Origin: Comamonadaceae bacterium
GTDB taxonomy: Bacteria; Pseudomonadota; Gammaproteobacteria; Burkholderiales; Burkholderiaceae_C
DNA length: 64,000 nt
Assembly (NCBI GenBank): GCA_947450765.1
Contig: CANFXC010000003.1
Span: 1-64,000, forward strand
Reading direction: 5' to 3'
The stretch's first letter is position 1; the number at the start of each line of letters is the position of its first letter. Positions 6,974-26,530 of this stretch are shown piece by piece. The position numbers and the translations under genes were made by a program. The notes beneath the pieces are model-generated. The model had not been told where the DNA came from. It saw only the letters and a list, made by a program, of their open reading frames with translations, and searched no databases.

Positions 6974-7363
6974 TCATAGTGCCAACAACTCAATATCGTC
7001 CATGGGATAGTGCTTGCGATTGTGCGTCCACAACGGGCAACGGTGCGTGCGCGCCGTGGCGGCCATCAAGTAATCTTCTAGCGAAATGCCAGAGAAGGCC
7101 TTGGAAAATTGGTTGGCATACAAGCCCGCCATCCGCCCCGTGTCGACATCCATGTCGATGCGCTGACATAAATCAAACAGCGCTTCGATGTCACTGTATT
7201 CACGCTTGAAAGCCCCGGCGTACACCTCGGCGACAACCACGGGGCAAATCAAAAACCGGGTTTCAGACTCCAACAGCAGCATGAACCGCTCCACAACAGC
7301 TGGTACTTTTTTGAGCAGGTCAATGACAATGTTGGTGTCCAACACCAGACGCTCGGGCCTCAC
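6974..7363 (-). CDS. PIN-domain toxin (VapC-like ribonuclease)
   Basis: A 129-residue PIN protein and predicted Mg-dependent RNase. Acidic residues expected at the active site are Asp9 (VLDTN), Glu46 (VVAEVYAG) and Asp97 (LEDYLMAATA), with the late THNRKHY motif matching the family's TRNxxHF. The start is a GTG that overlaps the stop of the antitoxin gene by four bases (GTGA), a coupling typical of toxin-antitoxin operons. The 133 bases downstream to the LysR gene hold no gene that I can support. The RNA target is unknown. Confidence 0.88.
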   Translation of the reverse strand: MRPERLVLDTNIVIDLLKKVPAVVERFMLLLESETRFLICPVVVAEVYAGAFKREYSDIEALFDLCQRIDMDVDTGRMAGLYANQFSKAFSGISLEDYLMAATARTHRCPLWTHNRKHYPMDDIELLAL

Positions 7364-7748: not shown

Positions 7749-8573
7749 TCAAACCGGCTCAATCGTGATGCTCACCGTCATCGACTCTTCACCACCGCCC
7801 TGTCGCACGCCTTTGATCGGCGGGCAGGCGTCGTAGTCTGTGCCCATGGCCAAGCGCACGTGGCGCTGGTCAATCTGGCAGCTGTGGGTGATGTCAATGC
7901 TGACCCAGCGCCGCTCGGCCACGTCGAGGCACACATCAGCCCAGGCGTGGCTGGCCAAGTCGGGTTCGTTGGCGGCGTAAAAATAGCCGCTCACGTAGCG
8001 CGCCGGGATGCCCAAGCTGCGGCACACGGCGACCATCACGTGGGCTTGGTCTTGGCACACACCAGCGCCCGCTTGAAAGGCTTGCAGCGCCGTGGTGCTG
8101 ACGTTGGTGCTGTTTTTTTGGTAGCGAACCACATCGGCAATAGCTTGACTCAAAGCCAGCAGCTTGGCCAAATCTGCCTTGCCGTTAGCGGGGACAGTGG
8201 GTGCGACAAAGCGCCGGCCGAACTCCGTCAGCACCGCATGCGGGGCGGCCAAATGTGTCGGGCGTAAAAAGAAACTCGGGTGCGGCAAGTTCGGCGCATC
8301 CACAAACTCGGCCACACCCAGCGTGTCCACCTGCCCTGCCGCGTTGACCAAACTCCAGCGCACATCGTCACTCACTTTACCGACGAAGGTGTAGGAGTGA
8401 ATACTGTTGCCGTAGGCATCGTGCTGGGGAAAGAGCTTTTCGGGGGCGCCCAGACTCCAAAAATCCACGGTTTGCGCCGGCCCACTCTGCGGCGTCAGCC
8501 ACAGAGTTTGCAGGGCATAGAGCAGCGGTTCGCTGTAGCGGTAGTCGGTGGTGTGCTTGACGTGCAACTTCAT
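7749..8573 (-). CDS. Transglutaminase-like cysteine peptidase-fold protein (set A)
   Basis: A 274-residue protein with the bacterial transglutaminase N-terminal region (MKLHVKHTTDYRYSEP) and a papain-like core. The predicted triad is Cys173 (GVCQDQAH), His209 (ASHAW) and Asp227 (SIDITH). It could hydrolyse or transfer peptide or isopeptide amides; no signal peptide is seen. It is the third gene of a minus-strand operon after circularly permuted ATP-grasp and alpha-E genes, the neighbourhood on which predicted peptide-tagging or peptide-synthesis systems are based. The 115 bases between this stop and the operator show nothing. Confidence 0.85.
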   Translation of the reverse strand: MKLHVKHTTDYRYSEPLLYALQTLWLTPQSGPAQTVDFWSLGAPEKLFPQHDAYGNSIHSYTFVGKVSDDVRWSLVNAAGQVDTLGVAEFVDAPNLPHPSFFLRPTHLAAPHAVLTEFGRRFVAPTVPANGKADLAKLLALSQAIADVVRYQKNSTNVSTTALQAFQAGAGVCQDQAHVMVAVCRSLGIPARYVSGYFYAANEPDLASHAWADVCLDVAERRWVSIDITHSCQIDQRHVRLAMGTDYDACPPIKGVRQGGGEESMTVSITIEPV

Positions 8574-8616
8574 GCCCGAGACCTTAACAGCAAGTCCATC
8601 GCTGAAAGAAAAGCTT

Positions 8617-9591
8617 TCAGTGGGTGCTCGGGACTAGAAATTCACGGCTGATGTTGGCACCAATCTCGTTGACCCGGTCCAGGAACTGAGTCAAAAAGGC
8701 GTGCAAACCGGTCGCCAGAATTTCGTCAATCCGTGAGTACTGCAGATCAGCGCGAAGCTTGCCCGCACGGCGCAGGGTTTCACTTTGCGGGTCACTCGTC
8801 ACCATGGCCAGATTGCTCATGACTTCGTTCAGGCAACCCAGCAAAGAGCGCGGCATGTCGGGCCGCAAAATCAACAGCTCAGCCACCAGTTCGGGTTTGA
8901 TGACGTCGCGGTAAACCTTGCGATACACCTCAAAGCCAGAGACGCTGCGCAGAATCGCACTCCAGTGGTAGAAATCAAACTCTTGCTCTTTGTCGTTGAC
9001 CGAGCCCAAGGCGGATTCGACTGCATGGAATTTCACATCGACCAGGCGGGCGGTGTTGTCGGCGCGCTCCAGAAAAGTCCCCATGCGCAAAAAGTGAAAA
9101 GACTCGTCTTGCAGCATGGTGCCCAGCGTGACGCCGCGCGACAAATGCGAGCGGAACTTAACCCACTCAAAAAACTGGGCCGGATCCCGCTTGAACTCAG
9201 CGCTCTTGCCCCTGAGCATGCGGATGACTTCGAGGTAAGTTTGGTTTTGCGTTTCCCAGACTTCGGTGGTCAGTGAGCCACGCACGGCGCGGGCGTTTTC
9301 GCGGGCGTTTTGCAGACACGAAATAATGCTCGACGGATTTTTTTCATCACGCACCATGAAGTCCATCACATCGGTCGGGTTGATGTTGTCGCCGTCGTAT
9401 TTGGCCGCGTAAGCCGGCTTCAGCTCACTGATGCTGAGCAGACCCTGCCAGGCAGCTTGCGCCACCTCGTTCGATTGTGGCAACAACGAGGTCTGGTAGT
9501 TGACGTCAAGCATGCGGGCCGTGTTCTCGGCGCGCTCGGTGTAGCGGGACATCCAAAAAAGATGGTCGGCGGTGCGGGAAAGCATGGTCAT
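8617..9591 (-). CDS. Alpha-E domain protein (COG2307 type, set A)
   Basis: A 324-residue all-helical alpha-E protein. The family N-terminal signature is present: SRTADHLFWMSRYTERAENT, with a conserved Arg-Tyr-x-Glu-Arg core. Its biochemical role is unknown; the family co-occurs almost always with circularly permuted ATP-grasp and transglutaminase proteins and is thought to be a partner in amide-bond chemistry. The ATG overlaps the stop of the upstream ATP-grasp gene by four bases, so the two are translationally coupled. Set B in this window carries the same domain fused to its ATP-grasp. Confidence 0.87.
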   Translation of the reverse strand: MTMLSRTADHLFWMSRYTERAENTARMLDVNYQTSLLPQSNEVAQAAWQGLLSISELKPAYAAKYDGDNINPTDVMDFMVRDEKNPSSIISCLQNARENARAVRGSLTTEVWETQNQTYLEVIRMLRGKSAEFKRDPAQFFEWVKFRSHLSRGVTLGTMLQDESFHFLRMGTFLERADNTARLVDVKFHAVESALGSVNDKEQEFDFYHWSAILRSVSGFEVYRKVYRDVIKPELVAELLILRPDMPRSLLGCLNEVMSNLAMVTSDPQSETLRRAGKLRADLQYSRIDEILATGLHAFLTQFLDRVNEIGANISREFLVPSTH

Positions 9592-11069
9592 ACATTTTCT
9601 CCCATGGTTGCGAGTGCCGGCTTTGAAGCCGCGTCTTCCAGAATCCAGGTGTCTTTGGTGCCGCCGCCTTGCGACGAGTTGACCACCAGCGAGCCGTCTT
9701 TGAGGGCCACACGGGTCAGTCCACCCGGCACCATCTGCACCTCTTTGCCGCTGAGCACAAAGGGACGCAAGTCAATGTGGCGCGGCGCAATGCCGCTGTC
9801 CACATAGGTCGGGCACGTCGACAAGCTGAGCGTTGGCTGCGCGATGTAGCCGGACGGATTGGCCAGCAGCGCACGGCGGAAATCTTCAATTTCAGCCTTC
9901 GTCGACGCCGGCCCCACCAGCATGCCGTAACCGCCAGCGCCGTGAACTTCTTTGACAACCAAGTCTTTCAGGTTGGCCAAGGTGTATTTCAGGTCGTCAT
10001 CGTTGCGGCACATGTAGGTCGGCACGTTTTTCAAGATCGGTTTTTCACCCAGGTAAAACTCGATCATCTTTGGCACATACGGGTAGATCGACTTGTCATC
10101 AGCCACGCCCGTGCCAATCGCGTTGCACAGCGACACATTGCCACTGCGGTAAACATTCAGCAAGCCGGCACAGCCGAGGGTGGACTTTGGCTGAAACGCC
10201 AGCGGGTCCAGGTAGTCGTCGTCCACACGGCGGTAGATCACGTCAACGCGCTTGGGGCCGCGCGTGGTGCGCATGTAGACAAAGTTGTCTTTGACAAACA
10301 GGTCCTGGCCTTCCACCAACTCGACGCCCATTTGCTGCGCCAAAAACGCATGTTCAAAATAAGCCGAGTTGTACATGCCGGGCGTCAGCACGACCACAGT
10401 CGGTTCGGCGGTGGCCGGAGGGGCCATTTGGCGCAGGGTCTCTAACAGCAGGTCAGGGTAATGAGCGACCGGGGCCACACGGTTTTGGCTGAACAGCTCT
10501 GGGAAAAGCCGCATCATCATTTTGCGGTCTTCCAGCATGTAGCTAACGCCGCTGGGCACACGCAGGTTGTCTTCAAGGACGTAATATTCGCCCTCGCCTT
10601 GGGCGTTCGGGGCGCGCACGATGTCGATGCCGCTGATGTGAGAGTAGATGTTGCCGGGCACATCGACGCCCATCATTTCCGGCCGGAACTGGGCGTTTTG
10701 AAAAATCTGCTCAGCCGGGACATGGCCGGCCTTGATGATTTCTTGGTCGTGGTACACGTCGTGGATAAAACGGTTCAAGGCCGTGACACGCTGCACCAGC
10801 CCTTTTTCCATGCTGGCCCATTCGTGGGCGGGAATGATGCGGGGGATCAGGTCAAAGGGGATCAGGCGTTCGCTGCCGGCCCCGTCTTCATCCTTGTCGC
10901 CATAGACGGCAAAAGTGATGCCGACGCGCCGGAAAATCATTTCGGCTTCGGCTCGACGGTCTTGCATCACGTCGGCCGGCTGCTGGGCCAGCCAGCGCTG
11001 GTAGCTTTCGTAGTGGGCTCGCACGCTCGTGGCACTGGCGTTCATTTCGTCAAACATCGGTCGGCTCAT
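9588..11069 (-). CDS. Circularly permuted ATP-grasp protein (COG2308 type, set A)
   Basis: A 493-residue predicted ATP-dependent carboxylate-amine/thiol ligase. Conserved ATP-grasp elements are visible: VLEDNLRVPSGVSYMLEDR, the glycine-rich VHGAGGYGM loop, and a late RPFVLSG...MVPGG...SQGGG block. Family knowledge predicts peptide- or amide-bond formation; substrates are unknown. It heads the operon with alpha-E and transglutaminase genes. GGAGA lies nine bases before the ATG. The 163-bp gap to comEC presumably contains its promoter, but no clear -10/-35 pair was seen. Unlike the set B fusion, its acidic ED-N motif is intact. Confidence 0.88.
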   Translation of the reverse strand: MSRPMFDEMNASATSVRAHYESYQRWLAQQPADVMQDRRAEAEMIFRRVGITFAVYGDKDEDGAGSERLIPFDLIPRIIPAHEWASMEKGLVQRVTALNRFIHDVYHDQEIIKAGHVPAEQIFQNAQFRPEMMGVDVPGNIYSHISGIDIVRAPNAQGEGEYYVLEDNLRVPSGVSYMLEDRKMMMRLFPELFSQNRVAPVAHYPDLLLETLRQMAPPATAEPTVVVLTPGMYNSAYFEHAFLAQQMGVELVEGQDLFVKDNFVYMRTTRGPKRVDVIYRRVDDDYLDPLAFQPKSTLGCAGLLNVYRSGNVSLCNAIGTGVADDKSIYPYVPKMIEFYLGEKPILKNVPTYMCRNDDDLKYTLANLKDLVVKEVHGAGGYGMLVGPASTKAEIEDFRRALLANPSGYIAQPTLSLSTCPTYVDSGIAPRHIDLRPFVLSGKEVQMVPGGLTRVALKDGSLVVNSSQGGGTKDTWILEDAASKPALATMGENV

Positions 11070-11232
11070 GGGCTTATATCTCCAGCAAATTCAACTCTGA
11101 TACTTGTATTTACAGCTTAGCAAGTTATGCGCCAATCAACGGATAAAGCCGATATTTTTCACGCTATTTCTTGATTTCTGGGCGTCAATAAACCCTTTTT
11201 ACGACAAGCCTCGGCTCAAGCTCTTAAAAAGT

Positions 11233-13842
11233 TCACTGCGTCACTGGCACACGGTGATGCCAGTAACGCAGCCCCACTTCGCGCTCGCAGGCCCACTCTG
11301 CCGGCCGGGCACTGCGCCAAGTTGCTGCACCGCAGGAGGCGGACTGAAGCACCATGATGCCCCGCTGGCGATAACGCTCAAGCACCTCGGGTGCTGGATG
11401 ATTGAAGCGGTTTCTGTAGCCGGCTTGGGCCAACGCCAGCCGTGGCTGCACGGCATCCAGAAAGCTGCCACTTGATGAGGTTTTGCTGCCGTGGTGAGGC
11501 ATCAGCAACACCTCCGATTGAATCGACCCCACCCGCAGCAAGGATTGCTCTTGCCGAACCTCAATATCACCCACCAGCAGCGCACTCACCGGCCTGGCGC
11601 TCACTGAGCCTTTGGCCGCGGCCGAAATTCGCAGCACGCAGCTCAGGGTGTTCGGTTTGGCGGGCGCGTCATAGGCGGCAGGGTCTGGGTGCAGCATCTC
11701 AAAATCAACCCCGTCCCATTGCCAGCGCTGGCCCGTCTCACAGCGCGTCCCAGAGCGTAATTGCTGCAGTTCGTGCTCGCCCTCCATGGAACTGGACAGC
11801 GCCGCCTGTGGCTGCATGGCCAGCACTGAAGCGGCACCACCCACATGGTCGGTATCGCGGTGGCTGAGCAAGACGAGGTCAAGCCGTACGCCTAAGGCAC
11901 GCAGCAGCGGCACCAGCACCCGGTGACCGGCATCGCTGTCGCGCGAAAAGCGCGGCCCGGCGTCGTACAGCAGCGCATGGTTGGCGGTGCGCACCAGCAC
12001 AGCGTTGCCCTGCCCAACATCGGCGGCCAGCAATTCAAACTCGCCCACATCCGGTCGCAACGGTTGCCACAATAGCACCGGCAAAAGCAAAGGAACGCCC
12101 AGCACCCGCCAATGCCACGGCAGCCGCATCACCAGCAGCAAGCCGCCCGCCACGCCCGCTGCCGCACACCACACAGGCACGGCGGCCTGACTGACGGTCG
12201 CTATTGGCCACGCCGCCAGCACCTCCAAAACAGCGATCAGTACGCCGGTGAACCAGGCTGCTAGATCCCAGAATGGCGCCCACACAACCCCCAACAAAGC
12301 CAGCGGTGTGATGAGCAAGGTGACAGCCGGAATCGCCAGCGTATTGGCCAGCAGGCCGACCACAGAGACTTGATTGAAAAGCAGCAATGTCAGCGGCGTC
12401 AGGGCCAGCGTGATGACCCATTGCTCACGCAGCATGCGCCAGGCACTATTGAGCACGCGCATCAGCCACGCCTGGCAGTCAGGCAGCCAGCGCCAGCGGG
12501 TAGGACGCAAAGCGGCGGCACTGGCCGTGTTAGCGTGAGTCGACGGCGATGATCCAGGGTCAGACGCAAACAGCACGCCAACCGCCACAAAGGACAGCCA
12601 AAAACCTGCTTGCAGCAACGCCCACGGATCAAAAGCCACCACCACGGCCATGGCCAGCAGCCAGATGTGCGGCCAAGCCCACTGCCGGCCACTTTGTCGC
12701 AATAGCACCACCACCGCAAGCATCAAAATGGTGCGCTGGGCCGGCAAGCCCAAACCCGAGAAGCTGGCGTAGGCTGCCGCTAGCAACAACCCACCCCAAG
12801 CAGCCGCACTGCTGGCGGGTAACAGCAGACACCAACGCGGCGTGAGCAGCGCCGAACGCCGCCACAGCCCACCCAGCACGCGCGACGCCAGCCACGCAAA
12901 CAGCGTGATGTGCAAGCCCGAAATACTCACCAAATGGGCAATGCCCGTGGCCCTGAAAACATCCCAATCGGCACGCTCGATGGCATTTTGGTCGCCTACC
13001 ACCAAGGCCGCGAGCACGCCAGCCAGTTGGCGACTCGCGATGCGTTCGAAAATAGCCTCGCGCACGCTTTGGCGTGCCCGCTCCACTGCATACCAAGGGC
13101 TGTAGGTTGCGTAGGCGCTCAACTTGATGGGCGGAGTATCTCGCACGCCGGCGCGCACCGACCCCGTCGCCTGCAGGCCCTGCTCCCACAGCCACAACTC
13201 GTAGTCAAACCCATGCGGGTTGCTGTTGCCGTGCGGTGCTTTCAGCCGCACGGTCAGCTGCCAGCGCTCGCCAGCACGCATGGGCTGCGGCAGGCGCGAC
13301 TCTAAAACAGGCGCAGCAACGGGTCGCGGTGCCATGAAAAATTCGGAATACCAGCCTACATACAGCTGCGGCGGCAGCGCCACCGCAGCGCCCTCCAGTC
13401 GCGCCGATTCGACCTTCAAGCGAAAGCGAACGACATCTTCACCTTGCTGCGGCATGGTTTGAACGACACCCGTGACTTGAATGTCGCGCCCCTCAAGCGA
13501 GGGCTTAAGCGCCTGCGCCTCAAAGACAGAAGCGCGTAATCCCGTGAGGCTAAAACCCAAAGTCAATCCAGCCAGGACCATCATGGGCACCGTGGCCACT
13601 TGAATGGACTGTCGCCGGAAAAACAACGCAAGTGTCAGCCAGCCGATTCCCGCCACCAACCCGACCGTGTAGACGTCGTCAGTGGCTAGACTGGCCTGCT
13701 GCAGCTGAAACGCCGTGCCAATAACGAGCCCGAGCAACAGCCCGACAGGTGTGGAGGGCACGCCTAATTTAATGCTGAGCCACGGCAGTGGGTCGTTGTT
13801 CAATTGAATCCTTTGCCACCTAGGCAGTGATTGCGGCGACAC
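11233..13842 (-). CDS. comEC: ComEC/Rec2 DNA uptake channel protein
   Basis: An 869-residue inner-membrane protein for transport of single-stranded DNA during natural transformation. N-terminal membrane segments precede an OB-fold-like DUF4131 region. The Competence domain follows (GIAHLVSISGLHITLFAWLASR near 300-320, then many helices to about 600), then a C-terminal metallo-beta-lactamase domain with HRDTDHVGGA and MPHHGSKTSSS. It is full length for a proteobacterial ComEC. The start is GTG 13842 with only a weak upstream site. It lies between the two amidoligase gene sets and is divergent from set B. Confidence 0.92.
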   Translation of the reverse strand: MSPQSLPRWQRIQLNNDPLPWLSIKLGVPSTPVGLLLGLVIGTAFQLQQASLATDDVYTVGLVAGIGWLTLALFFRRQSIQVATVPMMVLAGLTLGFSLTGLRASVFEAQALKPSLEGRDIQVTGVVQTMPQQGEDVVRFRLKVESARLEGAAVALPPQLYVGWYSEFFMAPRPVAAPVLESRLPQPMRAGERWQLTVRLKAPHGNSNPHGFDYELWLWEQGLQATGSVRAGVRDTPPIKLSAYATYSPWYAVERARQSVREAIFERIASRQLAGVLAALVVGDQNAIERADWDVFRATGIAHLVSISGLHITLFAWLASRVLGGLWRRSALLTPRWCLLLPASSAAAWGGLLLAAAYASFSGLGLPAQRTILMLAVVVLLRQSGRQWAWPHIWLLAMAVVVAFDPWALLQAGFWLSFVAVGVLFASDPGSSPSTHANTASAAALRPTRWRWLPDCQAWLMRVLNSAWRMLREQWVITLALTPLTLLLFNQVSVVGLLANTLAIPAVTLLITPLALLGVVWAPFWDLAAWFTGVLIAVLEVLAAWPIATVSQAAVPVWCAAAGVAGGLLLVMRLPWHWRVLGVPLLLPVLLWQPLRPDVGEFELLAADVGQGNAVLVRTANHALLYDAGPRFSRDSDAGHRVLVPLLRALGVRLDLVLLSHRDTDHVGGAASVLAMQPQAALSSSMEGEHELQQLRSGTRCETGQRWQWDGVDFEMLHPDPAAYDAPAKPNTLSCVLRISAAAKGSVSARPVSALLVGDIEVRQEQSLLRVGSIQSEVLLMPHHGSKTSSSGSFLDAVQPRLALAQAGYRNRFNHPAPEVLERYRQRGIMVLQSASCGAATWRSARPAEWACEREVGLRYWHHRVPVTQ

Positions 13843-13983
13843 TAGCCAGGTGTAAATGGGCCTTGAAACCCAGACTCCCCCCTGATTTGGCGCGGGTCTT
13901 GCTTACCTTTTTTGAGTATTGACCGAATGATCTGCACGCCAACATGGCGGCATCCACCTTGTACCTGAAAAGCGAGAACTTCT

Positions 13984-16900
13984 GTGTCCATTCATGTAGC
14001 CCTGAGTCACATCACGCATTACAAATATGACCGGCTGGTCAAACTCGGACCTCAGGTGGTTCGCTTGCGACCAGCCCCGCACAGTCGCACCAAGGTGCTG
14101 TCGTACTCTCTCACCATCGAGCCAGCCGATCACTTCATCAATTGGCAGCAAGATCCTTTTGCCAACTACCAGGCCAGGCTGGTGTTCCCCGAAGCTGCGC
14201 GCTCATTCAAGGTCACGGTCGATCTGGTGGTCGAGATGGCGGTGTTCAATCCATTCGACTTTTTCCTCGAACCCCAGGCTGAAGAATTTCCATTCAAATA
14301 CAGCGAAGCACAAGCCGTAGAACTCGCACCCTACTTGGTGACCGAGCCCGCCACACCGTTGCTGCAAAAGTACATAGCCAGCATCGACCTGACGCCGCGT
14401 CGTACCAACGACTTTCTGGTCAGCCTGAACCAGAAGTTGCAGTCCGACATCAAGTACGCGATTCGCATGGAGCCTGGCGTGCAGACGCCTGAAGAAACGC
14501 TGGCGCTGGCCTGCGGCTCCTGCCGCGACACCGGCTGGCTGATGGTGCAAATATTTCGCCACTTGGGTCTGGCCGCGCGTTTCGTGTCTGGCTACTTGAT
14601 TCAACTCAAAGCCGATGTCAAATCGATTGACGGCCCGAGCGGGGCCGAGAAAGACTTCACCGACCTGCACGCTTGGTGTGAGGTGTTTTTGCCAGGCGCC
14701 GGCTGGGTTGGACTCGACCCAACGTCAGGCCTGATGGCCAGCGAAGGCCACATACCACTCGCCTGCACACCCGAGCCTTCCAGCGCTGCGCCGATTGAAG
14801 GCGGCGTCGACGAATGCGAGGTGACGTTTGAACATCACATGGGCGTCCAACGCATTCATGAGTCCCCGCGCGTCACCAAGCCTTACACCGAAGAACAATG
14901 GGCTGCCGTGTTGGCGCTGGGCGAAGTGGTCGACCGTGATCTGGTGGCCGGCGACGTGCGCCTGACGATGGGCGGTGAGCCGACCTTTGTCGCCACCAAA
15001 GACCGTGACGGCGCTGAATGGAACATCGACGCCCTCGGCCCGACCAAGCGCGGCTACGCCACTGAACTGGTACAAAAACTCCGCGCTGAATACGGCGAAG
15101 GCGGCTTCCTCCACTTTGGCCAAGGCAAGTGGTACCCCGGCGAGCAATTACCGCGCTGGGCGCTGAGCATTTTCTGGCGTAAAGACGGCCATCCAATTTG
15201 GCAAAACCCGGCCCTGTTTGCCGACGAACGCCAGACCGGCAAAAAAGCCGACAGCGCCTGCCACTACACCAGCGCTGACGCCGACCGCTTCACCAAAATG
15301 CTGGCCTCCAAGCTGGGCTTGAGCCCGCGCCACATCACGCCCGGCTACGAAGACACTTGGTATTACCTCTGGCGTGAACGCCGCTTGCCGGTCAACGTGG
15401 ATCCGTTCAATGCGCGGCTCGAAGAGCCGATGGAGCGTGAGCGCTTGCGCCGTGTTTTCATGCAAGGGTTAGATGCCGTGGTGGGTTATGTGCTGCCACT
15501 CAAAGCGCGCGAAGAAGCCGCTGCGGCCAGCGCGCCGCGCTGGTCCACCGGGCCTTGGTTTTTCCGCGATGAACGCATGTACCTCATGCCCGGCGACTCG
15601 CCGATGGGTTACCGCTTGCCGCTGGACTCCGTGCCATGGGTCTCCGAAACTGACTACCCGTACTTGATTGAAACCGACCCGTTTGCGCCGCGCCAAGCGC
15701 TGCCGACAACGGCCGAAATAGCCACCCGCTACAGCGAAGACCACTGCCGCATGGCGGCTACGCCAGCGGTCTCGGCCGAGCCCATCGCCCCGCCAACACG
15801 CCACAACAGCGCCACCGTGCTGGCCCAGTACATGGCCCGCTTGACGCGTGTAGCGGCGCCGACTGTAGCGGCTCGGATTGCACAGTTCAAGCCGACATTT
15901 GCCGCTGCGATCAACTCGAAACCCGTTGAACCAGCCCCGGCACCGTCAGAAGTTGACCCTTCGGAACGCCTTCCGAAGCCACAAGAATCAGCCGCTTGGC
16001 TGAGTCGCACAGCACTCTGCATTGAAGTTCGCGACCCGGACCGAGCCAACGGCCCGAAAGCCGGCAACAAAGCCAAAGCCGACCCGGACAAGGTCAAAGG
16101 CCAAGGTGAAACCGGCGCACTCTACATCTTCATGCCGCCGCTGGAGCGCCTGGAAGACTACCTCGACCTGCTCGCCGCGATTGAAGCCACAGCCGAATCT
16201 CTGGCTGTGAAAATCGTTTTGGAAGGCTACCCGCCGCCACGCGATCCGCGTCTGAAAATGCTGCAAGTCACGCCCGACCCTGGCGTCATCGAAGTCAATA
16301 TTCACCCCGCCTACAACTGGGGCGAGCTGGTCGAGCACACCGAGTTTTTGTACGAAGTAGCGCACGAGACGCATCTGTCGGCCGAAAAGTTCATGAACGA
16401 CGGGCGCCACACCGGCACCGGCGGCGGCAACCACTTCGTGATGGGCGGCGCCACACCGTCTGACAGCCCGTTTTTACGCAAACCCGAGCTGCTCGCCAGC
16501 TTGATCGCTTACTGGCACAACCACCCGTCGCTGAGCTACCTTTTCTCCGGCATGTTCATTGGCCCGACCAGCCAAGCCCCCCGGGTGGACGAAGCCCGTA
16601 ACGACCAACTCTATGAGCTTGAAATCGCCCTGCGCGAGATTCAAAACAACCGCGCCAAATACGGTGCCGAGATGCCGCCGTGGATCGTCGACCGGACGCT
16701 GCGCAACATTCTGGTTGACGTCACCGGCAACACGCACCGCAGCGAGTTTTGCATCGACAAGATGTACTCGCCCGATTCGTCCACCGGCCGGCTCGGCTTG
16801 CTGGAACTGCGCGCCTTTGAAATGCCCCCGCATGCGCGCATGAGCATTGCGCAGCAACTGCTGCTGCGCGCGCTGGTAGCGCGCTTCTGGAAGAACCCCG

Positions 16901-17589
16901 GTCAGCACAAACTCACGCGTTGGGGCACCGAGCTGCACGACCGCTTTTTGCTGCCCAGCTTTATTCGCATGGACTTTGAGGACGTGCTGGCTGAACTGCG
17001 TGAAGAAGGCTACGCTTTTGAGATGGCTTGGTTTGAGCCGCACTTTGAGTTCCGCTTCCCGCTCATCGGTCAGGTGCAAACACGCGGCATTGAGCTCACG
17101 CTGCGCAGCGCGCTGGAGCCGTGGCATGTGATGGGCGAGGAAGGCTCGTCGGGCGGCACTGTGCGCTATGTTGATTCCTCGCTAGAGCGCGTCGAGATGC
17201 GCGTCACTGGCCTCAACCGCGACCGCTACCTCATCACCGTCAATGGCCGTGCGCTGCCGCTGCAAAACACCGGCACCGTCGGCGAGTATGTCGGCGGCGT
17301 GCGCTACAAAGCCTGGAACCCGCCATCGGCTTTGCACCCGTCGATTGGCGTGCATGCGCCGCTGACGTTTGACATCGTCGACACCTGGAACGAGCGTTCA
17401 TTGGGCGGCTGCCAGTACCACGTGTCACACCCGGGCGGTCTCAGCTACGACACGCTGCCGGTCAATTCCTTTGAGGCCGAAAGCCGGCGCCTGATGCGGT
17501 TTTTCCAGCTCGGTCACACGCCCGGGAAAATGCGCGTACCAAAAGAAGAGGTCAGCCGGGAGTTCCCCTTCACCCTCGATTTGCGTTAA
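13984..17589 (+). CDS. Transglutaminase-DUF2126 putative amidoligase (COG4196 type, set B)
   Basis: A 1201-residue two-part protein. Residues 1 to about 290 are a transglutaminase domain with a predicted triad of Cys180 (ACGSCRD), His229 (DLHAW) and Asp245 (LDPTSG). The rest is DUF2126, annotated in Pfam as a putative amidoligase, with conserved blocks MGGEPTFV and GTGGGNHFVMGG that suggest a glutamine-synthetase-like fold. Between about 595 and 690 lies a Pro/Ala/Lys-rich, poorly conserved stretch. The start is GTG 13984 without a strong ribosome-binding site. It is the first gene of set B; the fusion gene follows after 27 bases. Function is predicted only. Confidence 0.88.
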   Translation: MSIHVALSHITHYKYDRLVKLGPQVVRLRPAPHSRTKVLSYSLTIEPADHFINWQQDPFANYQARLVFPEAARSFKVTVDLVVEMAVFNPFDFFLEPQAEEFPFKYSEAQAVELAPYLVTEPATPLLQKYIASIDLTPRRTNDFLVSLNQKLQSDIKYAIRMEPGVQTPEETLALACGSCRDTGWLMVQIFRHLGLAARFVSGYLIQLKADVKSIDGPSGAEKDFTDLHAWCEVFLPGAGWVGLDPTSGLMASEGHIPLACTPEPSSAAPIEGGVDECEVTFEHHMGVQRIHESPRVTKPYTEEQWAAVLALGEVVDRDLVAGDVRLTMGGEPTFVATKDRDGAEWNIDALGPTKRGYATELVQKLRAEYGEGGFLHFGQGKWYPGEQLPRWALSIFWRKDGHPIWQNPALFADERQTGKKADSACHYTSADADRFTKMLASKLGLSPRHITPGYEDTWYYLWRERRLPVNVDPFNARLEEPMERERLRRVFMQGLDAVVGYVLPLKAREEAAAASAPRWSTGPWFFRDERMYLMPGDSPMGYRLPLDSVPWVSETDYPYLIETDPFAPRQALPTTAEIATRYSEDHCRMAATPAVSAEPIAPPTRHNSATVLAQYMARLTRVAAPTVAARIAQFKPTFAAAINSKPVEPAPAPSEVDPSERLPKPQESAAWLSRTALCIEVRDPDRANGPKAGNKAKADPDKVKGQGETGALYIFMPPLERLEDYLDLLAAIEATAESLAVKIVLEGYPPPRDPRLKMLQVTPDPGVIEVNIHPAYNWGELVEHTEFLYEVAHETHLSAEKFMNDGRHTGTGGGNHFVMGGATPSDSPFLRKPELLASLIAYWHNHPSLSYLFSGMFIGPTSQAPRVDEARNDQLYELEIALREIQNNRAKYGAEMPPWIVDRTLRNILVDVTGNTHRSEFCIDKMYSPDSSTGRLGLLELRAFEMPPHARMSIAQQLLLRALVARFWKNPGQHKLTRWGTELHDRFLLPSFIRMDFEDVLAELREEGYAFEMAWFEPHFEFRFPLIGQVQTRGIELTLRSALEPWHVMGEEGSSGGTVRYVDSSLERVEMRVTGLNRDRYLITVNGRALPLQNTGTVGEYVGGVRYKAWNPPSALHPSIGVHAPLTFDIVDTWNERSLGGCQYHVSHPGGLSYDTLPVNSFEAESRRLMRFFQLGHTPGKMRVPKEEVSREFPFTLDLR

Positions 17590-17616
17590 AGGACATCAGC
17601 TGAGGCTCCGGCTGCG

Positions 17617-20481
17617 TTGAAGGCATACTTGCACCCCGTGGAAAATAACAATCTGTCCCTGTTTGAGGCCGCCGCGCCAGAGTCTGCTGCCGATCTGGCG
17701 CTGGCACTGGCACCGCCGGCAGGTAGTGGTCATTTTGACGAGCTTCGCGGGGCCACTTCAAAGCGCCCGGCTGCGACGTCCAAGCTATCGCCGTTGCAAA
17801 CCCCATTGCCGGGGCCGCTGGGTATTGCCGGACAGACTCAGAGCCAGAGCAACGGTCAAAGCCAAACGCAGAGCCTGGGTCAAGGCTTAACGCAAAGCCA
17901 AACGCAGTCGATAGACCCAGCGGCAGCCACAACGCCAGAATCCAAAGCCAAACTGACGCCCGCTTGGCATGCGTTTTTCAACCAGCTGGGCACTGATGGC
18001 TTTTTTGACTTGAACCAACGCAACGCCAACTTGCAGCGACTGATCCGCGACAACGGCGTCACCTACAACGTCTACGCCGATGCCGACGGACCGCAGCGGC
18101 CGTGGGCGCTGGACTTGTTCCCCATGCTGTTGACGCCGCAAGACTGGGCCAGCATAGAAACCGGAGTGGCGCAACGGGCGCGCTTGCTAGACCGCATCAT
18201 GGCCGACGTTTATGGCGCGCAAGAGTTGCCAAAGCTCGGCCTGTTGCCCGCCGCTTTGGTTCAAGGTCACCCCGGCTATTTGCGCCCCATGCATGGCAGT
18301 CAGCCGGCGGGTGGCAAGTTTTTGCACATTGCAGCGTTTGACTTGGCGCGCGGCCCTGACGGCAGCTGGTGGGTGGTCTCCCAGCGAACGCAAGCGCCCT
18401 CGGGTTTGGGCTACCTGCTTGAAAACCGTTTGAGTATTTCAAAGCAGTTTCCAGAGGCTTTTCGCGAGATGAACGTGCAGCGTCTGGCAACGACTTACCG
18501 GGCCTTGGTCGACGGCATGAAAGCCGCTTGCCCGCTGCAAAGCCATCACAACATCCGCATCGGCGAACCGCGCATCGTCCTGCTGACACCCGGCCCCTAC
18601 AACGAAACATATTTCGAACACGCTTACTTGGCGCGCTACCTCGGTCTGACGCTGGTCGAAGGCAACGATCTGATGGTCCGGGACGACCGGCTTTACCTCA
18701 AAACGCTGCAAGGACTAGAGCCTGTTCACGGCATTTTGAAACGACTCGACGATGAATTTCTCGACCCCTTGGAACTGCGCGCCGACTCGACCCTCGGTGT
18801 GCCAGGCCTGCTGCAAGTGATTCGCGCCGGCAACGTTTTGGTGGCCAACGCGCCGGGCTCGGCGTTTCTGGAGTCGCCGGCCTTGCTGGGGTTTTTGCCG
18901 GCCTTGTCTGAGCACCTGCTGGGCGAAAAACTCGCGCTGCCGTCATTGGCCACTTGGTGGTGCGGGGAGCAAGCGGCTTTGCAATCGGTGCTGCCGCAGT
19001 TGAAAGACTGCGTCATCAAACCCACCTTTCCGGCCTCGGGCTTGCCAACGGTGATCGGCCAAACCTTGAGTCGGGCCAAGCTCGACGAGTGGGTCGGTCG
19101 CATCTTGCGCCACGGTGAAGACTACACCGTCCAAGCCTATTTACCGCTGTCGCAAACACCCACCTGGCAAGGTGAAAAAATAGCGCCCCGCTCCGCCATG
19201 CTGCGCGTCTTTGCGGTCTCTGATGGCAACAACGCCTGGCAAGTCCTGCCCGGCGGACTGGCCCGGCTGGCGGGTAAAGACGAAAACATAGCCTCAATGC
19301 AGTACGGCGGCAGCAGTGCGGATGTTTGGGCACTTGGCGCAGCGCAGCCCGGCAACGGACTTGAAACACCAGACGCTACGAGCGCAGTGCCAAGTACCCA
19401 AACACCCGCAGCCATGGCAACAGCCGCCTTGCGACCGCCACTGCGCCAAAAGCGCGCTGTCACCAGCCGCGCCGCAGAAAATTTATTCTGGCTGGGCCGC
19501 TACACCGAGCGAGCCGAGAATTCGGTGCGACTGGCCCACCTCACGCTGCAATGCTTGTCAGGCGAAGAACAGTCTTCACAGCCCTTGCTGGCTTGGCTCA
19601 GCGCCATGGCCGTCAACAATGCCTTGGTCGTGCCGACGGTGCCGTCGGCCACGCTGGCCAAGCGCGTGTTTGAACGCTCGCTCATCGCCAACCTGGCCGA
19701 CATGACCCAAGCGGCCAGCGTCGGCTACAGCCTGCGGGCCCTGAAAAATGCCGCCTCGGCCGTGCGCGAACGCCTGTCGCAAGAGCAGTGGAAAACCATC
19801 GTGCATGCCGAAGCCGAGTTTTTCGTGCGCTGCAAAAAAATCAGCAATGCCGCTGAAAAAGGTCCGCAAGGTGCGGCCTACTCGAGCCAAGAAGCGCTGC
19901 GTGCACTCGACGCTGCCAGCGCCTTTTTAGCGGCCATGACCGGGGCTCAAACCGACCGCATGATGCGTGATGATGGCTGGCGCCTGCTCAGCATTGGACG
20001 ACACATCGAACGACTGAACACGCTCGCTTCAGCCTTGATGCTCGGCTTTGAAACCGGCGCTGCGCAGGACGACAGTGGCTTTGCGGCTATCGTCGCGCTG
20101 TTTGACAGCACCATCACCTTTCATGCGCAATACCAACAACGCAGGGACATCGTGGCGCTGCTCGACTTGCTGGTGCTGGACCGCGACAACCCGCGCTCCA
20201 TAGCGTGGGTGGCACAAACGCTGCGCGCGCGCCTGGCCAAGCTGGAAGGCACTGACCTCGGCCAAATGGCCGCGCTGGCCATGAACCTGCCCGATCCCGG
20301 CAGCTGGACGCTGGCCGATCTGTATGGTGCCGATGACGGCGATGGCACGCTGCCGCAAACCCATGAGCGCATACAACGTCAACTAGAACGCTGCGCTGTC
20401 TCGGCACTCGAACTCTCTGACCTCATCAGCCGGCGCTACTTCAGCCATGCGGCCAGCGGCAGTCACAGCCTGAGCGCCTGA
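17617..20481 (+). CDS. Circularly permuted ATP-grasp fused to alpha-E domain (set B)
   Basis: A 954-residue fusion. Residues about 110-590 are a circularly permuted ATP-grasp domain, and about 610-950 an alpha-E domain beginning SRAAENLFWLGRYTERAENS. A Gln/Ser/Thr-rich low-complexity segment occupies about 68-96. Compared with the standalone set A enzyme, the motif VLEDNLRVPSG reads VVSQRTQAPSG, and the glycine loop HGAGGYG reads FPASGLP. So the metal- and ATP-contacting residues differ; this may be a subfamily trait or loss of activity. Start uncertain: TTG 17617 (GAGG 11 bases upstream) or GTG 17638. Confidence 0.85.
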   Translation: MKAYLHPVENNNLSLFEAAAPESAADLALALAPPAGSGHFDELRGATSKRPAATSKLSPLQTPLPGPLGIAGQTQSQSNGQSQTQSLGQGLTQSQTQSIDPAAATTPESKAKLTPAWHAFFNQLGTDGFFDLNQRNANLQRLIRDNGVTYNVYADADGPQRPWALDLFPMLLTPQDWASIETGVAQRARLLDRIMADVYGAQELPKLGLLPAALVQGHPGYLRPMHGSQPAGGKFLHIAAFDLARGPDGSWWVVSQRTQAPSGLGYLLENRLSISKQFPEAFREMNVQRLATTYRALVDGMKAACPLQSHHNIRIGEPRIVLLTPGPYNETYFEHAYLARYLGLTLVEGNDLMVRDDRLYLKTLQGLEPVHGILKRLDDEFLDPLELRADSTLGVPGLLQVIRAGNVLVANAPGSAFLESPALLGFLPALSEHLLGEKLALPSLATWWCGEQAALQSVLPQLKDCVIKPTFPASGLPTVIGQTLSRAKLDEWVGRILRHGEDYTVQAYLPLSQTPTWQGEKIAPRSAMLRVFAVSDGNNAWQVLPGGLARLAGKDENIASMQYGGSSADVWALGAAQPGNGLETPDATSAVPSTQTPAAMATAALRPPLRQKRAVTSRAAENLFWLGRYTERAENSVRLAHLTLQCLSGEEQSSQPLLAWLSAMAVNNALVVPTVPSATLAKRVFERSLIANLADMTQAASVGYSLRALKNAASAVRERLSQEQWKTIVHAEAEFFVRCKKISNAAEKGPQGAAYSSQEALRALDAASAFLAAMTGAQTDRMMRDDGWRLLSIGRHIERLNTLASALMLGFETGAAQDDSGFAAIVALFDSTITFHAQYQQRRDIVALLDLLVLDRDNPRSIAWVAQTLRARLAKLEGTDLGQMAALAMNLPDPGSWTLADLYGADDGDGTLPQTHERIQRQLERCAVSALELSDLISRRYFSHAASGSHSLSA

Positions 20482-20520
20482 CGCCGTCGCTCACTTTTCA
20501 CGCTTCATCGGTTTTTTTTC

Positions 20521-21471
20521 ATGTTGCTACACGTTGTCCACGAGACCCGCTATGACTACACGCCAGCGGTCGAAAATGCCCACCACGTGGTGCATCTCAA
20601 ACCTGCCAGCAACGCGCGTCAACAGCTGATCAGCCACCATTTACACATCGACCCGGCGCCCGCGCAGCAACGCGAAGTGGTCGACGTTTACGGCAACCTG
20701 AGCACCTTCTTTTCGTTTCAAAGCGCCCATGACCGCTTGCGTGTGGTGGCTGACAGCGTGGTCTCCACCACGCCCATCACGCCGTATTGGAACGCCGGTG
20801 AACTGCCCGCCAGCCCCAGCTGGGAACGCGTGCGCGAACACTTTCGCTACCATGCGGCGGCCGCCTGGGACCCGGCCGCTGAGTTTCTCTTTGCCTCGCC
20901 GTATGTCCCGCGTGATGACGCCTTTGCGGACTTCGCCCGACCCAGTTTTGCACCTGACCGGCCTTTGGCCGAGGCCGCACAAAACCTGATGCAACACATT
21001 CACCGCAGCATGCTGTACGAAAGCCTCAGCACGGAAGTCAACACGCCAGCGCTCGAAGCCCTGGAGCAGCGCAAAGGGGTTTGCCAAGATTTCGCGCACA
21101 TCATGGTGGCCTGTTGCCGCGCTATGGGCCTGCCAGCGCGCTACGTCAGCGGCTACTTGTTGACGCATCCCGCGCCAGGCCAGCCGCGACTGATTGGCAG
21201 TGACGCCTCGCACGCTTGGGCCTCGGTGTATTGCCCGGCGGCCACAGCCAGCGGTGAAGTCGACCGTGTGATGCCTGGCTGCTGGCTCGACTTTGACCCA
21301 ACCAACGACCGCAGCCCGGGTGAGGATTACGTGACCCTTGCGACGGGCCGCGACTTCCTCGACGTCTCGCCGATGCGCGGCGTGATTCGCGGCGGTGCCC
21401 GGCATGCACTGAGTGTGGCGGTGACCGTCGCACCGCTTGATGCCAGCGACCTCGTACTCAGCGATCACTAA
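20521..21471 (+). CDS. Transglutaminase-like protein (set B)
   Basis: A 316-residue transglutaminase-family protein with a predicted triad of Cys188 (GVCQDFAH), His231 (ASHAW) and Asp259 (FDPTND). The N-terminal region (MLLHVVHETRYDY) matches the bacterial transglutaminase N domain. It follows the ATP-grasp/alpha-E fusion by 39 bases and is the second transglutaminase domain of set B. No signal peptide is seen, so a cytoplasmic amidase or transamidase acting on the ligase product is the simplest inference. Confidence 0.86.
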   Translation: MLLHVVHETRYDYTPAVENAHHVVHLKPASNARQQLISHHLHIDPAPAQQREVVDVYGNLSTFFSFQSAHDRLRVVADSVVSTTPITPYWNAGELPASPSWERVREHFRYHAAAAWDPAAEFLFASPYVPRDDAFADFARPSFAPDRPLAEAAQNLMQHIHRSMLYESLSTEVNTPALEALEQRKGVCQDFAHIMVACCRAMGLPARYVSGYLLTHPAPGQPRLIGSDASHAWASVYCPAATASGEVDRVMPGCWLDFDPTNDRSPGEDYVTLATGRDFLDVSPMRGVIRGGARHALSVAVTVAPLDASDLVLSDH

Positions 21472-21507
21472 AATTGGCGGTTTACCGCAGCATCACCTAG
21501 GAAACTC

Positions 21508-21990
21508 ATGTCCAACCTCTCCACCGCCATTTACGACAAGCTCAAAACCCTCGGCATTGAGCTGCCGCCCGTGGCCACGCCCGCTGCGGCGTATGTTCCC
21601 TTTGTGCAAAGCGGCAAGCTGATTTTTTTGAGCGGTCATATCGCTAAAAAAGACGGCAAAGTATGGGTTGGCCAGCTCGGTAAAACCATGCTCACCGCTG
21701 AAGGCCAACAAGCCGCACGCGCCATCGCGATTGACCTGATGGGCACGCTGCATGCCGCGCTGGTCGCCACGGGCAAAGACCTGAGCCATGTCAAACGCAT
21801 CGTCAAGCTGATGAGTCTGGTCAACTCGACCGGCGACTTCACCGAGCAACACTTGGTGACCAACGGTGCCAGTGAACTGATTGGAGAAGTTTTTGGAGCC
21901 GCTGGCGCACATGCCCGCAGCGCCTTTGGTGTGGCGCAAATCCCGATGGGTGCGTGCGTTGAAATCGAAATGATCGCCGAGATCGCCTGA
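21508..21990 (+). CDS. RidA/YjgF-family protein
   Basis: A 160-residue member of the RidA superfamily in the longer subgroup of roughly 150 residues, with the signature FLSGHIAKKDGKV and a C-terminal VEIEMIAEIA strand. RidA proper hydrolyses reactive 2-aminoacrylate imines to keto acids; longer relatives may use other substrates, and residues typical of true RidA are not all present. AGGAAAC precedes the ATG. It lies 36 bases after the set B transglutaminase and could be cotranscribed, and it is convergent with parC, two bases apart. Confidence 0.85.
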   Translation: MSNLSTAIYDKLKTLGIELPPVATPAAAYVPFVQSGKLIFLSGHIAKKDGKVWVGQLGKTMLTAEGQQAARAIAIDLMGTLHAALVATGKDLSHVKRIVKLMSLVNSTGDFTEQHLVTNGASELIGEVFGAAGAHARSAFGVAQIPMGACVEIEMIAEIA

Positions 21991-21992
21991 AC

Positions 21993-24347
21993 TCACTCCA
22001 CCCGCGTCACGCTGTTCGGCTTGAAGCCGAGATCCGCCGCCTTGCCTTTGCGGGCACGGGCGGCGCGAGCGTTGTTCAGGCTCCGAATCTCAAGCGTTTC
22101 TTCACGTTCTTTGGCACCGCGGCCAATGCCCTCGATCTTGATGCTGCGCGTGTAGGCAGCGGCACCGGCCAGCTGGTCTTTGGCTTCGAGGTCGATCAGC
22201 ATCAGGCCGCGTCCGCCTTTTTCCATCAACTTGAGTTCGTCGATTTCAAAGGTCAGGATGCGTCCGCCGGTCGATGCGCAGGCCACGTGCGTGGCGTCCG
22301 GCAGCGGCTGCGCACCTGAAGTACCCGCTGCATGCGAAGGCTTGCACAGGGCTTCGCCTTCACCCAAGCTGATAAAAGCTTTGCCGCTCTTGTTGCGCGA
22401 GATCATGTTCTCGACCGCCGCCAAAAAGCCGTAGCCGCCCGAGCTGGCCAGCAAGAGCTGCGCAGAAGCCGGGCCGGCGAAGTAATGCGCCACTTGCGTG
22501 CCGGCTTCAAGCTCGATCAGCGTGGTCACGGGCTGGCCGTCACCGCGCGCACCGGGCAGCACGGCCACCGGCACCGAGTAAACGCGGCCGTTGCTGCCAA
22601 AGACCAACAAGGTGTCAACCGTGCGGCATTCAAAGGTCGCGTAGAGGCCATCGCCAGCCTTGAAGGCAAAGCTTGTCGCGTCATGGCCCTGACCGTTGCG
22701 CGAACGCACCCAGCCCTTGGCGCTGACGACAACGGTGACAGGTTCATCAATCACCTTGACGTCCAGCACGGCTTTTTTATCGGCCTGAATCAGCGTCCTG
22801 CGCGAGTCTGCAAAGACCTTGGCGTCAGCCTCGATTTCTTTGACCATGAGGCGGCGCAGCGTGGTCGGATTGCCCAAAATGTCTTCGAGCTTGGCTTGGT
22901 CTTCGCGCAGGCCACTGAGCTCTTGTTCGATCTTGATGGCTTCGAGCCGGGCCAACTGCCGCAGGCGAATCTCAAGAATATCTTCGGCTTGACGGTCGCT
23001 GAGTTTGAAGCGCTCCATCAGCGCGACCTTCGGCTCATCGGCTTGGCGAATGATGGCAATGACTTCGTCGATGTTCAGCAGCACCAGCTGCCGGCCTTCA
23101 AGAATATGGATGCGCGCCAACACTTTGTCGAGCCGGTGCTGTGAGCGCCGCTGAATGGTGGTGTGACGAAACTCAATCCACTCGGTGAGGATTTGCCGCA
23201 AAGACTTTTGCGTCGGCCGACCATCCAGGCCGATCATCGTCATGTTGATCGGCGAAGAACTTTCCAGGCTGGTGTGCGCCAGCAGCGTGGTGATGAGCTC
23301 GCTCTGCTCGATGCGGCTGGTCTTGGGTTCAAAGACCAAACGCACAGCGGCATCTTTGCTGGATTCGTCGCGCACCACATCCAGCACAGACAGCACGGTT
23401 TGCTTCAGCTGAATTTGCTCTTGCGACAGCGCTTTTTTGCCCAACCGCACCTTCGGGTTGGTGATCTCTTCAATTTCTTCGAGCACACGTTGGGTGCTCA
23501 CGCCTGGCGGCAACTCGTTGACCACCAATTGCCACTGGCCGCGCGCCAACTCTTCGATTTTCCAGCGGGCCCGCACTTTGAGCGAACCGCGTCCGGTGCG
23601 GTAGGCCGCAGCGATTTCGCTGGCACTCGAAATAATCTGGCCGCCACCCGGGTAATCGGGGCCGGCGATCAATACCGAAATCGCTTCGTCCGTGATGCTC
23701 GGCGTCTTGATCAGGGCGATGCAGGCGTCGGCCACTTCGCGCAAGTTGTGGCTCGGAATCTCAGTCGCTAAACCGACCGCAATGCCACTGGCGCCATTCA
23801 GCAAGGTGAACGGCAAACGCGCTGGCAACTGGCCCGGTTCTTCGGTCGAGCCGTCGTAGTTAGGCACAAAGTCGACCGTGCCTTCGTCGACTTCTTCCAT
23901 CAACAAACTGGTGATGCGCGCTAGGCGCGCCTCGGTGTAACGCATGGCGGCAGCGCCGTCACCGTCGCGTGACCCGAAGTTACCTTGACCGTCAATCAGC
24001 GGGTAGCGCTGGCTGAAGTCTTGCGCCATGCGCACCAGCGCGTCATACGCGGCTTGGTCGCCGTGCGGATGAAAGCGGCCCAGTACGTCGCCGACCACGC
24101 GCGCGCATTTGACCGGCTTGGCGCCGGTCGCGCCGTTAGCACCGCCAAAGCCCAAGCCCATGCGCGCCATGCTGTACAAAATGCGCCGCTGCACTGGCTT
24201 CTGGCCGTCGCAGACGTCGGGCAAGGCGCGGCCTTTGACAACGCTGAGTGCGTATTCGAGGTAAGCACGTTGAGCGTAAGCCGCCAGCGAATCCTGATCG
24301 GCGGGTTCAGGGTTAACGGCGGGAGCGTCGGGGGTGAATAAATCCAT
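21993..24347 (-). CDS. parC: DNA topoisomerase IV subunit A
   Basis: A 784-residue type IIA topoisomerase subunit that decatenates daughter chromosomes with ParE. The catalytic Tyr lies in [10 protein letters not shown] near residue 137, with the GyrA/ParC box [17 protein letters not shown] around it. The region that sets quinolone response reads [20 protein letters not shown], with Gln at the position usually held by Ser in E. coli ParC. The C-terminal part has degenerate beta-pinwheel repeats, as in ParC rather than GyrA. parE lies upstream on the same strand, its stop 58 bases before this start, so the order is parE then parC. Confidence 0.95.
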
Positions 24348-24405
24348 GGCGGTGTCAGATCAATCGGTATTCAGTTTGAAGTTCAGTTAGCAGGCGCAAT
24401 CGCGA

Positions 24406-26376: not shown

Positions 26377-26530
26377 GGCAGTGCTGTGATTTGCGGCGAT
26401 TGTAGTCGCGACACACAGCAACTACTGGATAAAAATACAGCCCCACCAGACAAAGAAGATGCCAAAAATATGCCAGCGGCGCCAGCTCAGCCGCAAGCAC
26501 GATCAACGCTGATTCGTTACATTTAAGCCC

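Follow-up and report, generated by a model that had tools for sequence, protein, structure and literature searches.

What are two neighbouring copies of one amide-bond-forming gene set doing in the same genome, and do they work together or apart? The question is raised by a stretch of 64,000 nucleotides from a Comamonadaceae bacterium (contig CANFXC010000003.1, assembly GCA_947450765.1), referred to here at its full length as the window. The host is an uncultured relative of Polaromonas carrying two neighbouring copies of a known peptide-bond-making gene set, set A (7749-11069, minus strand) and set B (13984-21471, plus strand), which stand either side of comEC. Systems of this kind, proposed to make or attach peptides, were reportedly set out by Iyer et al. 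in 2009. The arrangement of the two sets is widespread and the family already known; in a sample of the phylum Alpha-E is found in 115 of 199 genomes and DUF2126 in 60, yet no product of these sets was found in the literature examined. An earlier note on this DNA, made from the letters alone, had suggested two pathways or a two-step pathway.

The reading developed below, to which even chances are given, takes sets A and B, as ancient paralogues, to be the two halves of a single system that synthesises or attaches an amide product resembling a peptide and is expressed via sigma54-type promoters, most likely in response to NtrC and nitrogen limitation. New in this analysis are the lost active site of an ATP-grasp domain fused to Alpha-E in set B, the dependence of set B on set A and the pattern of promoters.

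Two paralogous gene sets under purifying selection

The open reading frames (ORFs) around comEC match Pfam and TIGR00361 where the earlier note had placed the two sets (Table 1), and its families, its pairing of split and fused proteins and its link to the peptide-synthesis proposals hold. Its total of seven enzymes or partner domains is corrected to eight domains in six genes (three transglutaminase, two ATP-grasp, two Alpha-E and one DUF2126). The ATP-grasp and Alpha-E genes of set A share a 4-base overlap (9588-9591) at the Alpha-E start. The genome assembly of the window (3.04 Mb, 151 contigs, 86.7% complete) contains two Alpha-E matches, both in sets A and B.

The best 80 of at least 590 matches were taken as loci of relatives (L numbers), giving 81 loci with the window, and 60 further loci elsewhere in the phylum were fetched as a second set; genomes (G numbers) were sampled from the order (120, presumably Burkholderiales), the family (100) and the phylum (199). 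The closest named relatives by the DUF2126 protein, among the matches listed, are Comamonadaceae metagenome-assembled genomes with 96% identity, with Polaromonas next at ~80%. The ratio of nonsynonymous to synonymous substitution (dN/dS) against L055 is 0.014-0.113 for the domains of the sets and 0.158 for comEC, and against L068 and L006, for which dS is about 1 or more, it is 0.036-0.239 and 0.156-0.209. Sets A and B are under purifying selection, strongest in the set A ATP-grasp. Decay of one set, which the earlier note had named as a result that would count against it, is ruled out by these values, and chance or artefact as the source of the gene sets is ruled out by the Pfam scores together with dN/dS.

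Trees of the ATP-grasp and Alpha-E domains each comprise 123 sequences, 73 split and 50 fused (two from the window, 43 from 22 of the 80 loci and 78 from further fetched loci), ATP-grasp pieces shorter than 300 and Alpha-E pieces shorter than 220 residues being excluded. In both trees the split and fused forms are separated by a single change with a value of 100 in the Shimodaira-Hasegawa-like approximate likelihood ratio test (SH-aLRT), the trees having been made by a quick method with no bootstrap, an unknown root and some long end branches. The two forms therefore parted once, before the sample diverged. Judged by sequence, split and fused ATP-grasp/Alpha-E are ancient paralogues, and of the two outcomes that the earlier note had offered for their phylogeny, old paralogues or co-occurring partners, both apply.

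Table 1. Features of sets A and B and of the gene between them, in window positions
Feature	Position	Strand	Evidence
Set A transglutaminase-like protein, 274 aa	7749..8573	-	PF01841 1.3e-22, PF08379 4e-14
Set A Alpha-E protein, split type, 324 aa	8617..9591	-	PF04168 7.2e-101
Set A circularly permuted ATP-grasp, 493 aa	9588..11069	-	PF14403 9.7e-168; 3n6x E 2.3e-219
Candidate sigma54 -24/-12 promoter of set A, TGGCGCATAACTTGCT	11119..11134	-	10/12 consensus positions
comEC, DNA uptake channel	11233..13842	-	TIGR00361 1.9e-103
Candidate sigma54 -24/-12 promoter of set B, TGGCGCGGGTCTTGCT	13888..13903	+	11/12 consensus positions
Set B transglutaminase-DUF2126 fusion, 1201 aa	13984..17589	+	PF09899 (DUF2126) E=0
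Set B ATP-grasp/Alpha-E fusion, 954 aa	17617..20481	+	PF14403 7.1e-144, PF04168 2.1e-56
Set B stand-alone transglutaminase-like protein, 316 aa	20521..21471	+	PF01841 3e-21, PF08379 1.6e-23

Catalytic-site residues of the ATP-grasp domains

Residues were counted by domain numbering in the 73 split and 50 fused ATP-grasp sequences. The catalytic-site residues Asp143, Glu160, Asn162, Lys320, Lys367, Gly373, Gly374 and Gly376 are kept in 73/73 split sequences, and all eight are present in set A of the window. In the fused sequences Glu160 and Asn162 are absent throughout (0/50 each) and Lys320 is kept in one, with Asp143 found in 49/50 and Lys367 in 28/50, and the glycine loop is largely gone (Gly373 6/50, Gly374 16/50, Gly376 3/50), such that the most any fused sequence keeps is five of the eight. 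In the window fusion the residues S255, R257, P421, K468, S474, G475 and P477 take the places of E166, N168, K326, K373, G379, G380 and G382 of set A. The domain is still a family member by sequence (Table 1), aligns with 3n6x at E 1e-82 and shares several conserved residues found in the fused clade only.

The solved structure 3n6x, a putative glutathionylspermidine synthase, resembles the set A ATP-grasp and carries its motifs LEDN, ADDK and GGYG in the alignment, all of which are gone from the fusion. The catalytic-site residues are presumably metal and ATP ligands, a role carried over from E. coli Gss by the order and spacing common with its D318, E330-x-N332, K498 and K533 (residue letters checked against the gss gene sequence). 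The profile of the E. coli Gss synthetase domain gives no significant alignment with either ATP-grasp domain (hhalign probability <1% for both), which rules out a true glutathionylspermidine synthetase in set A or the fusion; a sub-threshold stretch of the fused profile against Gss (E 0.13) fits the Lys320 and Lys367 columns to K498 and K533.

Because residues invariant in set A are lost, the ATP-grasp domain of the fusion is probably non-catalytic, a pseudo-ligase, and two plausible ATP-dependent ligases therefore remain. This departs from the earlier note, which had treated all the amide-bond domains as enzymes of equal standing. No previous description of the degenerate fusion was found in the literature search, which did not cover Iyer et al. 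2009. It is also conceivable, if doubtful, that the fused domain was repurposed and binds nucleotide or another ligand and catalyses another reaction through an altered metal site. The retained Asp143 (49/50) and Lys367 (28/50), the residues conserved in the fused clade only and the purifying selection would suit such an enzyme; the loss of Glu160 and Asn162 in 50/50, of Lys320 in 49/50 and of Gly376 in 47/50 sequences argues against it.

Co-occurrence and synteny

The distribution of the genes makes it unlikely that the sets serve two separate pathways or products, with set A of the Anbu type and set B an independent DUF2126 pathway, the two being neighbours through the same stress induction. 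In the 120 genomes of the order, the fused ATP-grasp/Alpha-E is found in 22, all 22 of which also have DUF2126 and split Alpha-E, and DUF2126 is found in 41, all 41 with split Alpha-E (fused and split labels are from score and open-frame length, with partial matches in G107 and G050 counted as split; Fisher values for co-occurrence are not independent tests, since the genomes are related). Two pathways would be favoured by the common occurrence of split Alpha-E without the fusion (43/65 genomes) and by the distance of more than 0.6 Mb between the Alpha-E genes on one contig in G394, G378, G244 and G377. Hybrid sets in L121-L124, which combine DUF2126 with genes of set A and lack a fusion in the stretch examined, count against them.

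The two Alpha-E genes of the 22 fusion genomes lie within 20 kb on one contig in 16 cases, at 48-122 kb on one contig in three and on different contigs in three. The earlier note had also thought it damaging if relatives kept the sets unlinked and shared no phenotype; unlinked sets are seen in some genomes, at distances of megabases in G394, G378 and G244 for example. Four DUF2126 genomes of the phylum sample (G252, G265, G280 and G297) have a single Alpha-E match.

The 81 loci comprise 47 with both ATP-grasp/Alpha-E pairs in the stretch examined, 22 with the fused pair only, four with the split pair only and eight with neither, contig ends clipping many of the stretches. The two pairs are on opposite strands as in the window in 39 of the 47 and on one strand in eight, and in five of these eight comEC is on that same strand too. 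A transglutaminase gene within 600 bases downstream of split Alpha-E is present in 15/53 cases, absent in 35/53 and near a contig edge in 3/53. For L049 and L053, the protein that best matches the set A transglutaminase is encoded behind set B. The earlier note had called both sets complete, which is so in the window, where all genes are present; the completeness of set A is lineage-specific.

A comEC match is present in 58/81 near loci and in 4/60 further loci. On these counts comEC is probably a frequent neighbour and a bystander outside the system, and a functional part for it was set aside.

Candidate sigma54 promoters and possible nitrogen control

The heads of sets A and B both carry a -24/-12 sigma54-type element with the -24 GG and -12 GC. 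Sites with at least 10 of 12 consensus positions are common in the window at large (seven, Markov mean 11.5), and the promoter argument therefore rests on position and conservation. Such sites lie upstream of transglutaminase-DUF2126 in 64/80 loci, window included, and upstream of 44/60 matches to the set A ATP-grasp query, equivalent to 44/52 true set A genes as eight rows are paralogue cross-matches without a site. Markov shuffles have sites in 2.2% and 1.8%, and the two Alpha-E controls of the near loci in 0/51 and 0/68. The transglutaminase rows of the scan (16/80 and 8/58) mix paralogues and were left unused. In the 60 further loci the set A site is present in 21/51 against 2.2% shuffled, with none upstream of Alpha-E (0/51) or fused ATP-grasp (0/27).

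The placement of sites by gene arrangement is the trace expected of a single regulated unit. In loci with both sets on one strand and A upstream, a site is found at A alone (7/7); in L080, on one strand with B first, both sets have a site, and on opposite strands the site is at both heads in 28/39 loci and at one head in 11/39. Separate sites at both heads in these 28 loci are compatible with two pathways, to which the one-strand runs with a single site are opposed. One shared system fits better than two pathways because sigma54-type promoters are at both heads, one-strand runs have a single site and the fusion is never found without split Alpha-E. Of the options in the earlier note, two pathways is thus the one that fits less well, and a single system in which two ligases are plausibly live and a third is a pseudo-ligase accounts for the data better than active enzymes in two pathways.

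The pattern TGGCNCN5TTGCT has 31 sites in the genome, two of them in the window, against seven for the reversed control. NtrC boxes in the relatives are found at set A in 22/60 against 6.7% shuffled and at set B in 11/78 against 5.3%, with controls at 2/51 and 5/68.

Expression data from related gene sets were taken from published reports available in part. In Burkholderia cenocepacia the cluster BCAM1233-1236 (ATP-grasp, Alpha-E and two transglutaminase proteins) drops 6.0-9.4 fold when ntrC is mutated and appears in a list of targets common to sigma54 and NtrC (PMC5491218). In Pseudomonas putida PP_2686-2688 are up 11.0-14.7 fold in the wild type under nitrogen limitation, and the operon PP_2685-2688 is called likely NtrB/NtrC-controlled (PMC7801951). 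A Bradyrhizobium CP_ATPgrasp gene is in the table of an RpoN paper, with TGGCCCGGCCCTTGC (PMC13207237). The available parts of papers on Caulobacter ntrC and on Paraburkholderia and nitrogen contain nothing on these sets, apart from another transglutaminase homologue, hvyA.

The transglutaminase, DUF2126 and Alpha-E proteins

By domain numbering, Cys173-His209-Asp227 are kept in the set A transglutaminase, Cys178-His227-Asp243 in transglutaminase-DUF2126 and Cys188-His231-Asp259 in the stand-alone protein of set B; the Cys-His-Asp residues are taken to be the catalytic triad. The Pfam match of DUF2126 covers model positions 1-826 of 826. A structural model of DUF2126 with a mean predicted local distance difference test score (pLDDT) of 80.7 was compared with the PDB using Foldseek, and the top 19 matches are all glutamine synthetase (GS), gamma-glutamylmethylamide synthetase (GmaS), a GS homologue or Dop. 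These fold matches are weak, with GmaS and GS from E 0.028, none better, and Dop at 0.33; they agree with a GS-like assignment, short of proof.

The set A Alpha-E protein was modelled by AlphaFold2 with a pLDDT of 94.6. No PDB match at E<=0.001 was obtained by fold or by sequence, and the attempt to read a function from the confident model was given up. A G-R-x-x-E-R signature in helix 1 of this protein (R14, E17, R18) is repeated at residues 169-174, and the repeat suggests an internal duplication.

Anbu

The earlier note had found no Anbu peptidase. None is on the contig of the window, where the genome-wide search gave no match to a proteasome-family protein, but the genome has one on another contig (C131; 275 aa, L084 1174-2001), so that absence from the genome is ruled out. 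Five PDB entries, with the names Designed Anbu, Anbu or Peptidase, match the ORF with E-values from 1.9e-88 to 6.2e-64; the best is a designed Anbu (1.9e-88), and an entry named Anbu is matched at 2.1e-72. It is flanked by a mutS-like ORF and an undecaprenyl-diphosphatase-like ORF, both named by eye. A second proteasome-family protein of 225 aa (L083 1474-2151, PF00227 3.3e-8) adjoins a dihydrolipoamide acyltransferase-like ORF and may correspond to the proteasome homologue reported from betaproteobacteria by Valas and Bourne.

Anbu is present in 84/100 genomes of the family, with Alpha-E in at least 89/100. In the 120 genomes of the order 65 have split Alpha-E and 61 have Anbu, both being found together in 60 and alone in five and one, respectively. 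Elsewhere in the phylum Anbu was seen in 27/60 further loci and lies behind set A (e.g. L085, L128-L131 and L133-L136), in the hybrid sets (L121-L124) or after set B (L114). The hybrid sets of L121-L124 have ATP-grasp, Alpha-E, Anbu and transglutaminase-DUF2126 in one run, with no fusion protein or stand-alone transglutaminase within the stretch examined.

Proposed mechanism and relation to known systems

With sets A and B as one system, the set A ATP-grasp would activate a carboxylate as an acyl phosphate and couple it to an amine, and DUF2126, a probable GS-like ligase, would carry out a second ATP-dependent amidation. The three transglutaminase-like proteins, which keep Cys, His and Asp, would then transfer or cleave the amide, the Alpha-E proteins would be partners of each ATP-grasp domain, and the unlinked Anbu would trim or remove the product. 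The ATP-grasp half of the fusion, no longer catalytic, would be retained for DUF2126 as its scaffold, receptor or allosteric partner. In this species the genes would be expressed through sigma54 under a nitrogen signal. A more specific form of this proposal, on balance unlikely, makes the pseudo-ATP-grasp a non-catalytic partner of DUF2126 (substrate receptor, tag carrier or switch) in a sigma54-controlled two-ligase peptide tagging system of sets A and B with Anbu as the remover; if true, bacteria would have a tagging pathway built on one active ligase paired with a pseudo-ligase.

The system closest to set A is the circularly permuted (CP) ATP-grasp/Alpha-E/transglutaminase/Anbu system, described second-hand in the available parts of two reports (PMC5666114, PMC6376114). 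The gene order of set A (ATP-grasp, Alpha-E, transglutaminase) is that of the Anbu operons of relatives, and set A comes with the catalytic-site residues, the adjoining Alpha-E, the Cys-His-Asp transglutaminase and an Anbu in the genome. It differs in that Anbu is outside the operon on a separate contig and a second paralogous set with DUF2126 stands alongside. The B. cenocepacia cluster BCAM1233-1236 (PMC5491218, available in part) is similar to the first part of the one-strand run in L079, from Burkholderia guangdongensis. Transglutaminase-DUF2126 has the same fusion and the full-length Pfam match of the putative amidoligase COG4196, and is unlike it in being beside a fused pseudo-ATP-grasp/Alpha-E, with the protein of L121-L124 directly with set A genes and Anbu. 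Pupylation by PafA and Dop would likewise combine a GS-like enzyme with a peptidase of the proteasome family. One of the weak fold matches of DUF2126 is Dop, and the ATP-grasp, Alpha-E and transglutaminases are additional in the present system.

Several observations weigh against a single nitrogen-controlled system. In the further loci the set B site is present in just 3/31, and no sigma54-type site was found at Anbu in the genome of the window or upstream of 28 Anbu genes of relatives. At the other 29 sites of the sigma54 pattern no classic nitrogen gene was recognised by eye from the first residues of nearby ORFs, with no annotation search, and the attempt to derive a sigma54 regulon from this genome was uninformative. 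NtrC boxes in the window are weak, the best at set B having 8/12 positions and that of set A 10/12 at 260 bases out, inside comEC, and the enrichment in relatives is modest. The wide separation of the Alpha-E genes in the four genomes named above is a further difficulty. In P. putida, PP_2686-2688 are induced 14.2-19.6 fold even in an rpoN mutant, which speaks against a simple sigma54 switch in that species, although further genes placed under NtrC also remain inducible in this mutant; PP_2685, the 20S-proteasome-like gene, is at 1.12 in the wild type (PMC7801951, in the part available). One study, available in part, reports that Anbu neither bound its operon partners nor cleaved test peptides, and that one ATP-grasp released phosphate (PMC6376114). 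No substrate, product or phenotype of either set was found in the literature examined.

Amide turnover, in which the transglutaminase-like and Anbu proteins degrade an amide store for nitrogen that the ligases build at other times, is improbable: transglutaminase folds can be hydrolases and the P. putida and B. cenocepacia genes have nitrogen-limitation or NtrC-linked expression, as such a role would have it, and two plausible ATP-dependent ligases would be costly for pure breakdown.

For sets A and B as one system, an ATP-grasp lineage that has lost its active site and is accompanied by an intact one and by DUF2126 narrows the candidate chemistry to two ligases. The sigma54-type promoters at both heads hint at the inducing condition and at which mutants to compare, and two co-regulated-looking copies, one with a probably dead ligase part, make a long-standing functional puzzle easier to test.

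Neighbouring genes

Directly downstream of set B is an ORF of 167 residues (21493-21996) without a Pfam match; many of the 80 relatives have it in the same position after set B. It is followed on the minus strand by subunits A and B of a type IIA topoisomerase (21993-26421), which recur behind set B in a number of relatives. On the other side, set A is adjoined by a VapC-type PIN-domain protein (6974-7363), and a histone-deacetylase-family protein (1477-2442, PF00850 1.2e-82) adjoins a mechanosensitive-channel gene.

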